The notes under the pieces were generated by a model. It searched no databases. It was given only the letters and a program-made list of their open reading frames with translations, and was not told the DNA's origin. Of a stretch of DNA of 60,745 nucleotides, positions 24,874 to 27,400 are shown one piece after another. A program made the position numbers and the translations under genes. The DNA lies in the NCBI GenBank assembly GCA_021201315.1, contig JAJQFG010000060.1, forward strand, positions 1 to 60,745, written 5' to 3'. Each line of letters starts with the position of its first letter. The first letter of the stretch is position 1. This DNA is from Erysipelotrichaceae bacterium. Its GTDB lineage: Bacteria; Bacillota_I; Bacilli_A; Erysipelotrichales; Coprobacillaceae.

Positions 24874-26133
24874 ATGGGATTTAAAGAAGATTTTAAACTT
24901 CAATCAAATGAATTATTAGAAAAACGTGTTATGCGTGATGCCATTCATGATTATATACGTGTTGATCATTTGATTATATGGCGTTTGATAAATGCTCAAG
25001 AAGTGCAACGCCTTAGAAGAATTAAACAATTAGGTGGTACACATCAAGTTTTTCAAAGTGCTGAACATTCACGCTTTGTTCATTCTTTAGGTGTTTATCA
25101 AACCGTTAGACGTATGTTAGAAACTGAATGCTTAGATCATTATTTGAGTGATTATGATAAGCTATGTGTGATGATTGCAGGGTTACTTCATGATATCGGT
25201 CATGGTCCTTTTTCGCATTCTTTTGAAGGTGTTTTTCATGATAATCATGAAGATATGACAGTTCGTCTTATTTTAGAAGATAGTGAAGTTCATGATATAT
25301 TGGTTGATTTTTATGAAGAACTGCCTTATGACGTGGCCTCTATCATTCAACATTCGCATCCAAACCAAGCTTTAATACAAATGATATCTAGTCAATTAGA
25401 TGCTGATAGAATGGATTATCTACTTAGAGATTCATATATGAGTGGAACCACTTATGGTCAATTTGATATGTCTAGAATACTACGTACTATGCGTATTAAA
25501 GATGATCATATTGTATATAAAGAATCAGGTGTTCAAGCTATTGAAAACTATATATTAGCTCGTTATCATATGTATTGGCAGGTTTATTATCATCCTACAG
25601 CAAGAAGCTATGAACATCTATTTCAAAGTATTTTCTTAAGAGTCAAAGACCTTTATCATCAACATTATATCTTTAAAACAAATATGAAATATATTTTACC
25701 ATTCTTAGAAAATAAAGAAACCAATACGGATTTTACCAATCTTGATGAATCGGTTATCTTATATTATTTTAGAGAATTTTCTAAAGAAGATGATGCTATT
25801 TTAAAAGATTTATCATTACGCTTTCTAAATAGAAGATTGTTTAAATATGTGGATTTTGATGATATACAAGAAGTAGAAGAAATCAAAAACATGGCGATAA
25901 AACATGGTTACGATCCACGTTATTATATTATCACTGATAATCAAAAACAAATTCCTTATCTTCATTATGGAGATAACTTTAATGAAATAGAAATCTTAGA
26001 TCGTCATAACCAATTATCACCATTACCATTAAAGTCTGAAATTGTATCAGCTATACTCAATTCTAAAAATTATAAATCTGACCAAAAAGTATTTTTTCCA
26101 AAGGAGCTTAAAGATGACATATCAATTTTATGA
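24874..26133 (+). CDS. HD-domain phosphohydrolase (YwfO-like, dNTPase family)
   Basis: A 419-residue metal-dependent phosphohydrolase related to dNTP triphosphohydrolases. Motifs are VMRDAIHDYI near the N-terminus, RLRRIKQLG (substrate contact), SRFVHSLGVY (first metal His), LLHDIGHGPFSHSFEG (the HD pair) and LDADRMDYLLRDS. All five belong to this family. The ATG at 24874 is chosen because TAGGTG is six bases upstream; a GTG at 24865 overlaps that site. The end overlaps the acetyltransferase start by 20 bp. The likely role is nucleotide-pool control. Confidence 0.87.
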   Translation: MGFKEDFKLQSNELLEKRVMRDAIHDYIRVDHLIIWRLINAQEVQRLRRIKQLGGTHQVFQSAEHSRFVHSLGVYQTVRRMLETECLDHYLSDYDKLCVMIAGLLHDIGHGPFSHSFEGVFHDNHEDMTVRLILEDSEVHDILVDFYEELPYDVASIIQHSHPNQALIQMISSQLDADRMDYLLRDSYMSGTTYGQFDMSRILRTMRIKDDHIVYKESGVQAIENYILARYHMYWQVYYHPTARSYEHLFQSIFLRVKDLYHQHYIFKTNMKYILPFLENKETNTDFTNLDESVILYYFREFSKEDDAILKDLSLRFLNRRLFKYVDFDDIQEVEEIKNMAIKHGYDPRYYIITDNQKQIPYLHYGDNFNEIEILDRHNQLSPLPLKSEIVSAILNSKNYKSDQKVFFPKELKDDISIL

Positions 26134-26527
26134 ACAATTACCTCAAGAAGCTAAAATGATAAGAGAAGAAGTGTTTGTGAAGGAGCAAGGATTTCAAGTA
26201 GAATTTGATGATATGGATCATCATTGTTTACATTTGGTACTATATAAAGATCATCAACCTGTAGGATGCGCTCGTATGTATGATGATCATCATCAGATGA
26301 TATTAGGTAGAATTGCTGTCTTAAAAGCATATCGTCATTTGCATCTTGGCTCTCAAATTCTAGAAATTTTAGAAAATAAAGCTAAGGAATTAGGATATCA
26401 TACAGTTTATTTATCAGCACAAGTACGTGCAAGTGATTTTTATTTAAAAAATGGTTATATAAGATATGGTGAAGAATATCTTGATGAATATTGTCCTCAT
26501 TGTCATATGAAAAAAGATATTGAATGA
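26114..26527 (+). CDS. GNAT-family N-acetyltransferase (ElaA/YjcF-like)
   Basis: A 137-residue acetyl-CoA-dependent acetyltransferase. The pattern IREEVFVKEQGF near the start, VGCARMY and LGRIAVLKAYRHLHLGSQI (the acetyl-CoA pyrophosphate loop) match the ElaA/YjcF-like group. YLKNGYIRYGEEYLDEYCPH gives the standard C-terminal strand, ending in a CPHCH motif. AAGGAG is 7 bases before the ATG at 26114, inside the end of the HD gene, so translation is coupled. The acetylated substrate is not known. Confidence 0.83.
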   Translation: MTYQFYEQLPQEAKMIREEVFVKEQGFQVEFDDMDHHCLHLVLYKDHQPVGCARMYDDHHQMILGRIAVLKAYRHLHLGSQILEILENKAKELGYHTVYLSAQVRASDFYLKNGYIRYGEEYLDEYCPHCHMKKDIE

Positions 26528-26630
26528 TTATATAAAATGTATAATATTATGCAAATTATTAGAAGAAATATAAATTTGATACTTGTTATTGATGATTAGT
26601 TTCTTTGTTGTTTTTATACAAAACAATATT

Positions 26631-26655
26631 AAAAAACAGCAGGTTGCTGTTTTTT
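26631..26655. terminator. Bidirectional terminator between the GNAT and ACP-like genes
   Basis: AAAAAACAGCA (26631-26641) and TGCTGTTTTTT (26645-26655) form an 11-bp stem with loop GGT. Its A/T arms act as T tracts on either strand. It serves two convergent genes. Confidence 0.8.
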
Positions 26656-26674
26656 ATCTTTTATAATGTTATTG

Positions 26675-26908
26675 TTAACCATTATTTTTGATTTCTCTTT
26701 CGACATAATCGACTAAATCTGCTATTGTTATTAAATCTTCATTATCCTCAAGATATAAATGATATTCATCTCCTAAATCGTTTAATATAAGAACTCTATC
26801 CAATGCTTCGATATCTAGCTCTTCCAGAGTAGTTTCTAATTTTATTTTTTCTGGAATAATATCAAGTTGATCGTAAATAATATTCTTAATAGTTGTTAAT
26901 GTATCCAT
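26675..26908 (-). CDS. Acyl-carrier-protein-like protein lacking the phosphopantetheine serine
   Basis: The 77-residue acidic protein aligns along its full length with acyl carrier proteins, with helix I VKKII-like (IKNIIYDQL) and the TTLEEL loop. The diagnostic DSL motif is changed. The position that should be serine, site of the 4'-phosphopantetheine arm, is alanine: DIEALD, codon GCA. The residue before it is Glu rather than Asp. It therefore cannot carry acyl groups in the normal way. The start at 26908 has AAGGAGGAATTA upstream. It stands alone with no fatty-acid or polyketide genes nearby. It may be a structural or regulatory ACP mimic, or a decaying copy. Confidence 0.7.
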   Translation of the reverse strand: MDTLTTIKNIIYDQLDIIPEKIKLETTLEELDIEALDRVLILNDLGDEYHLYLEDNEDLITIADLVDYVEREIKNNG

Positions 26909-27118
26909 ATTATAATTCCTCCTTAATTTTGGCACATTATTATTTTAATACAAAATTAAAAAGACAGCAAGAGCTCTTACTATGGTTTCAAATTTTAAAA
27001 GTAAATAAGCAATCATCATTAGATGATATAAATGTTACCTATTTGCTGAATTGTATCATATAAACTCACATTTTAATCCCATAATGGTTATGTAGAATCA
27101 TTTTGGAGGTTTTAAAAA

Positions 27119-27400
27119 ATGGACAGAGAAGAAATTGAATATGAGACAGTACATCGTTCTTTGGCTATTATATGTTATGTAGTGATGATTGTTTGTGTTA
27201 TATTTTTTATAATTATGTTCTACTATCATTTTAACTATGTCTCTGATTTGATAGCTGATGGTGATATTGAATTAGTTGGAGATTTTTATGAAATCGTATA
27301 TTATTTTTTATCAGATAATGATTTTATTTATTTGTTGGGAGCATTTTTGTTTGGAATAATGGGTTATTGTATTGATAATTATGTTAGTGAAGAGGTTTGA
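27119..27400 (+). CDS. Small two-segment membrane protein, unknown function
   Basis: The 93-residue hydrophobic protein has membrane segments at about 14-36 and 67-85, separated by an acidic loop (ADGDIELVGD), and short charged ends. TGGAGG is 8 bases before the ATG, so it is probably translated. It lies 210 bp from the divergent ACP-like gene and 58 bp before the MATE transporter gene in the same direction, and may be co-transcribed with it. I do not recognise the family. Confidence 0.6.
   Translation: MDREEIEYETVHRSLAIICYVVMIVCVIFFIIMFYYHFNYVSDLIADGDIELVGDFYEIVYYFLSDNDFIYLLGAFLFGIMGYCIDNYVSEEV

Follow-up and report, generated by a model that had tools for sequence, protein, structure and literature searches.

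The window, a stretch of 60,745 nucleotides from an Erysipelotrichaceae bacterium, carries a small gene for an acyl carrier protein (ACP) relative in which the serine that receives the 4'-phosphopantetheine arm is replaced by alanine. Our best explanation, which we put forward tentatively and at close to an even chance, is that the gene is a stand-alone ACP paralogue whose carrier chemistry has been lost and which survives as a folded non-carrier protein. Judged by sequence comparison and a predicted structure, its product is a true but divergent serine-less ACP relative. The gene and its immediate signals are as follows.

26675 to 26908, minus strand: ACP-like gene of 77 amino acids with EAL replacing DSL and no serine (frame, profile and fold evidence)
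26806 to 26804, minus strand: GCA codon, Ala35 at the position of the phosphopantetheine serine (sequence and alignments)
26923 to 26918, minus strand: AGGAGG ribosome-binding site, 9 nt upstream of the ATG (sequence)

A predicted ACP fold without the carrier serine

The reading frame runs from an ATG at 26908-26906 to a stop at 26677-26675, and the plus-strand translation of 26675-26908 contains many stops. The position of DSL is occupied by E34-A35-L36, and the whole protein of 77 residues has neither serine nor cysteine. It is acidic, with 21 D/E versus 6 K/R. The first-pass annotation had described an unbroken frame with a good ribosome site, encoding an ACP-like protein of ACP-like length and helix pattern that lacks the phosphopantetheine serine, and each part of this description stands; the protein is an ACP homologue by profile. 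Promoter-like matches near the gene were at chance level (7 found, 6.3 expected), and expression is therefore unsupported by them.

The curated cut-offs for the AcpP family were missed in all three models, namely Pfam PF00550 (20.3 bits, E 6.6e-4, just below the cut-off of 20.8), NCBIfam NF002150 (47 bits, E 2.2e-12, cut-off 66) and TIGR00517 (27.3 versus 70.45). In a sequence search, PDB chains of ACPs matched from E 1.1e-7. AlphaFold2 predicts an ACP fold with high confidence (pLDDT 95.5, pTM 0.85), and solved ACPs matched this model with TM of about 0.8 and Z of 11-13. The predicted structure thus shows the ACP helical fold of 75-80 residues; DSSP called three long helices in the model and did not call the short third helix of ACP. 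Two other hallmarks of the family are missing. One is the DSL/DSI motif with its 4'-phosphopantetheine serine, replaced by EAL, and the other is the acidic and hydrophobic recognition face of helix II, which is altered at the positions of E41, M44 and E47. Here and below, residues of Escherichia coli ACP (D35, L37, D38, E41, M44 and E47) carry their E. coli numbers and are placed by our own reading of the alignments.

Distribution of the serine-less relative

The search for relatives covered the family (43 genomes) and the order (315 genomes, at E up to 1e-7). One close relative was found, at C118:853-1089 of G003 (Erysipelotrichaceae bacterium isolate MI.10_11), a genome of the same genus, with 53% identity. 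It also lacks serine at the motif position and has glutamate there (DEDN). Conservation of the alanine is thus not supported by the only close relative found; the serine loss is common to the two proteins, but not the alanine. Beyond G003, the 315 genomes of the order yielded no other serine-less member at E up to 1e-7, and the third match of that search, in G008, was an ordinary DSL ACP. The two further genomes of the genus, G001 and G002, have no close relative, so two of the genus's four genomes carry the gene, and their loci are unrelated.

Serine occupied the motif position in 72 of 74 distinct ACP-like proteins recovered by profile, a set biased toward profile resemblance; the exceptions were the window protein (Ala) and its G003 relative (Glu). 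As far as these sequences tell, serine loss at this position is rare among ACP-like proteins. Two short peptides taken from the profile were also scanned against a genome collection in which each species has one genome; this returned three loci, which were G003 and two serine-bearing ACPs of Coriobacteriia. Of 392 genomes drawn evenly from the phylum, 58 had a match to a four-sequence profile; 30 of the 61 places listed were taken as loci, and those read have DSL or DSI, the window gene excepted. Within what could be searched, the serine-less ACP relative therefore seems limited to one genus.

The two Coriobacteriia proteins are stand-alone ACPs from Slackia exigua and a Coriobacteriaceae MAG (L043 and L041). 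They share with the window protein the N-terminus MDTLATIK and a short loop before helix II, at 39-40% identity, in a search that was steered to the shared N-terminal peptide; they differ in keeping DSL and in belonging to another phylum. The tree (73 columns, 74 rows) does not securely group them with the window protein, and in it the branch of the G003 copy is very long. The N-terminus hints at an origin of the window gene in Coriobacteriia, for which the tree gives no secure support.

Genomic context

The surroundings of the gene were compared within the genus.

26114 to 26527, plus strand: left neighbour, GNAT acetyltransferase, in the same place in G001 and G002
26537 to 27057, no strand: stretch of about 515 bp absent from G001 and G002 and holding only the ACP-like gene (edges approximate)
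26630 to 26656, no strand: likely bidirectional terminator, a hairpin carrying T-runs on each strand, between the GNAT and ACP-like genes
27119 to 27400, plus strand: right neighbour, small membrane protein, directly after the GNAT gene in G001 and G002

As had been annotated, fatty-acid and polyketide genes are not near the gene; the 17 ORFs listed between 20 and 34 kb include none. The order in G001 and G002 is GNAT, small membrane protein, MATE, and the first two genes are direct neighbours. The stretch of about 515 bp may have been gained here or lost in G001 and G002, and the comparison favours neither. Terminator-like sites around the gene numbered 2, versus 0.1 expected. A possible 7-bp repeat, ATATAAA, lies at both edges of the stretch; it is AT-rich, has 9 copies in the surrounding 4 kb and may be there by chance.

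The G003 copy lies elsewhere and adjoins comEC (by ORF reading). DNA likeness between the two copies is 74% over 300 bp, covering the gene with its ribosome site and ending halfway through the terminator. No partner gene is common to the neighbourhoods of the two copies. In G003:C118, two copies of a comEC-like 3' end (L036 520-711 and 1507-1699, 81-83% alike) flank the ACP-like gene, and the segment looks as if it had arrived with its own comEC end.

A phage or plasmid origin of the gene and its insertion by a known element were considered and rejected. Neither 72,556 plasmid records (E up to 1e-3) nor 50,697 phage records (E up to 1e-2) contained a match. In IMG/VR, searched with a two-sequence profile, 99 stretches matched a pattern and none was confirmed. 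The sole sign of insertion by a known element is the possible 7-bp repeat, which is not persuasive.

Other carriers in the genome

A whole-genome Pfam search for PP-binding domains returned six places, the window gene being the fifth. The first-pass annotation had advised looking for a normal acpP elsewhere in the genome, and one is found at C65, where a DSL ACP lies within a fatty-acid operon whose ORFs were read by eye as fabH, fabK, fabD, fabG, fabF, fabZ and acc genes, with fabF confirmed separately. Since this ACP of fatty-acid synthesis (FAS) keeps DSL, carrier work is already covered in the genome. A stand-alone ACP with DSL is encoded at C17. At C131, an ACP reading GGASI retains its serine and adjoins genes resembling those of acyl-CoA metabolism. 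This ACP (L003 1462-1716), in which the Asp is replaced, lies directly 5' of phosphate acyltransferase-like and butyrate/acetate kinase-like genes, and the GGASI form also occurs in G001 and G002 (L099 and L097). The sixth place, at C3, consists of a short stretch matched within a long frame (E 3.8) and was not counted as an ACP.

The remaining place, at C97, is a second accessory ACP-like gene (L004 1444-1695, minus strand; G000:C97), which reads DPL, the serine being replaced by proline; its protein is not in the set of 74. Its relative in G002 (L061 1501-1746; 54-57% identity) keeps DSL, and the pair has a dN/dS of 0.54. Both genes lie near genes for BspA-type LRR_5 proteins and a DUF1292-type gene.

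Each of the genus's four genomes has fabF; in G003 it is split between two contigs (G003:C29:51-704 and G003:C90:6145-6723), possibly through an assembly break. The FAS-type ACPs of G003 and G002 were not found in these assemblies of about 320 contigs, and may have fallen into assembly gaps.

Evolutionary rates: decay or retention

The gene could instead be a decaying accessory ACP, once serine-bearing and either acquired or duplicated on a stretch holding just that gene, that is now unneeded, weakly constrained, functionless and heading to loss. We regard this as quite possible, if short of probable. Between the window and G003 copies, dS is 0.50, dN 0.30 and dN/dS 0.61, a ratio that favours decay. 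Four other genes, compared within the genus in seven pairs, gave dS of 0.46-0.88, which takes in the value of 0.50, dN of 0.02-0.10 and dN/dS of 0.03-0.14; the latter was 0.03 for the FAS ACP (against G001), 0.08 for the C17 ACP (against G003), 0.05-0.06 for MATE (three congeners) and 0.09-0.14 for GNAT (G001 and G002). Amino-acid change in the window gene is thus several-fold to ten-fold faster than in the comparison genes. Against G003, dS was 0.46 for the C17 ACP and 0.74 for MATE, with dN of 0.04 for each. As the dS of 0.50 is near the former and under the latter, the two copies may have parted at about the time of the species split.

The patchy presence in half of the genomes of the genus, at different loci, also fits decay. 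So does the C97 gene: because it reads DPL while its G002 relative keeps DSL, at a similarly high dN/dS, accessory ACPs appear to lose their serine readily in this genome, which points to a general loosening of such genes. Over the whole gene, pN<pS was not significant (p 0.11), which leaves room for drift.

Against decay stands the fact that an open frame and a ribosome site are retained in both copies; in a neutral simulation, the chance of one copy staying open through 32 substitutions was 0.11-0.22, and both are open. There is a single length difference within the coding region, of 6 bp and in frame, and the full ACP fold is predicted. Moreover, the changes are unevenly spread. With region boundaries set after the alignment had been seen, counts rounded for the tests and a single sequence pair, dN/dS was 0.19 for residues 1-31, 2.6 for residues 32-50 and 0.89 for residues 51-77. 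The first 31 codons, which include helix I, are constrained (pN<pS, p 0.0008), an observation that speaks against decay. In residues 32-50 (helix II), 4 of 19 positions are identical, versus 37 of 58 elsewhere (p 0.0015), and the share of amino-acid change exceeds that in residues 1-31 (p 0.008) and in all the rest (p 0.035). Taken alone, this region does not significantly exceed a ratio of 1 (pN>pS, p 0.11). By our reading of the alignment, the core of helix II is hydrophobic in both copies (V39/F, I41/L, L45/I and Y49/Y).

Mimicry of ACP partners and other alternatives

The first-pass annotation had proposed a carrier mimic that binds ACP partners, such as ACP synthase or stress regulators, in unacylated form; it would so compete with AcpP. 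The fold and the acidic make-up agree with this idea, and E34, L36 and D37 are similar in character to D35, L37 and D38 of E. coli ACP. Nevertheless, helix II is the part least alike between the copies, and in the DEDN of the G003 relative the equivalents of L37 and D38 are lost as well. The position of M44 is Asn in the window protein and Asp in the relative, that of E41 is Leu in the window protein, and that of E47 is Gly in the window protein and Gln in the relative. E. coli ACP meets SpoT and the FAS enzymes through helix II, and its M44I variant is reported to bind SpoT, FabZ, FabA and PlsX no longer (PMC3340395); S36T is reported to suffice for the loss of IscS binding (PMC13343975). As the partner-binding face is not kept, a decoy of AcpP partners becomes less likely, and on these sequences we consider the proposal improbable.

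A more speculative possibility, which we rate lower still, is a genus-specific, permanently apo protein of ACP fold whose former recognition helix is under diversifying selection. It would be a free adaptor, or a decoy, facing an opponent that itself changes (a phage, a competitor or a surface system), and would have moved between loci as a single-gene unit. The dN/dS of 2.6 in helix II points that way, but its excess over 1 is not significant (p 0.11). That an ordinary ACP was misread in sequencing or assembly is highly implausible, and this explanation was rejected: GCA is one change from TCA and the assembly is in 136 contigs, but many further residues of helix II differ too, and a base error is unlikely because the only close relative found, in an independent genome of the genus, also lacks the serine.

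Proposed retention as a folded non-carrier protein

Under the preferred reading of a retained non-carrier, loss of the serine would remove the usual site of the 4'-phosphopantetheine arm; the serine being absent, no arm is expected there. Even a change of serine to threonine abolishes arm attachment in E. coli ACP (PMC3340395) and likewise in Ralstonia ACPs (PMC9542644). The protein would presumably be made in the cell and remain permanently apo. Any remaining role would depend on binding away from the DSL/helix-II face; the better-kept parts are helix I and the C-terminal region. The protein might serve as a small structural or adaptor subunit of some partner outside fatty-acid synthesis.

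Constraint on ACPs is strong because many enzymes contact the carrier arm and helix II. A free-standing, fold-keeping, serine-less relative, if true, would be a clean case of a carrier turned non-carrier, and would make it possible to ask which ACP surfaces persist without the arm; in this case helix I has been retained, unlike helix II. If the gene is merely decaying, it would represent a minor loss of an accessory gene and would caution against labelling genes of this kind as carriers.

Comparison with known carrier proteins

Among the literature titles found in searches on serine-lacking, inactive or unusual ACPs, none concerned a free-standing serine-less bacterial ACP; we do not claim that such a protein is absent from print. 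The window protein resembles AcpP-type bacterial ACPs (PF00550; NF002150 and TIGR00517) in length, predicted fold, acidity and roughly 30-40% identity to serine-bearing members. It differs from them in having no serine and no carrier chemistry at the usual site, in scoring under the curated cut-offs, in its fast evolution and in lacking FAS neighbours. Its best PDB sequence match is AcpA of Enterococcus faecalis (PDB 8gsa; E 1.1e-7, fold match with TM 0.82), which differs in being a holo-ACP with DSL.

A carrier fold called inactive is known from Pks13 of Mycobacterium tuberculosis, whose description refers to a non-functional ACP domain (PMC11649247). Unlike the window protein, that domain is part of a multi-domain synthase and not a free protein, and we liken the two by description. 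The ACP fold also occurs in complexes outside lipid synthesis, according to the entry titles of AcpM with MmpL5 or EmbAB, of ACP with MukBEF and of the mitochondrial Nfs1-ISD11-ACP assembly. Unlike the window protein, these structural-subunit ACPs keep their serine.
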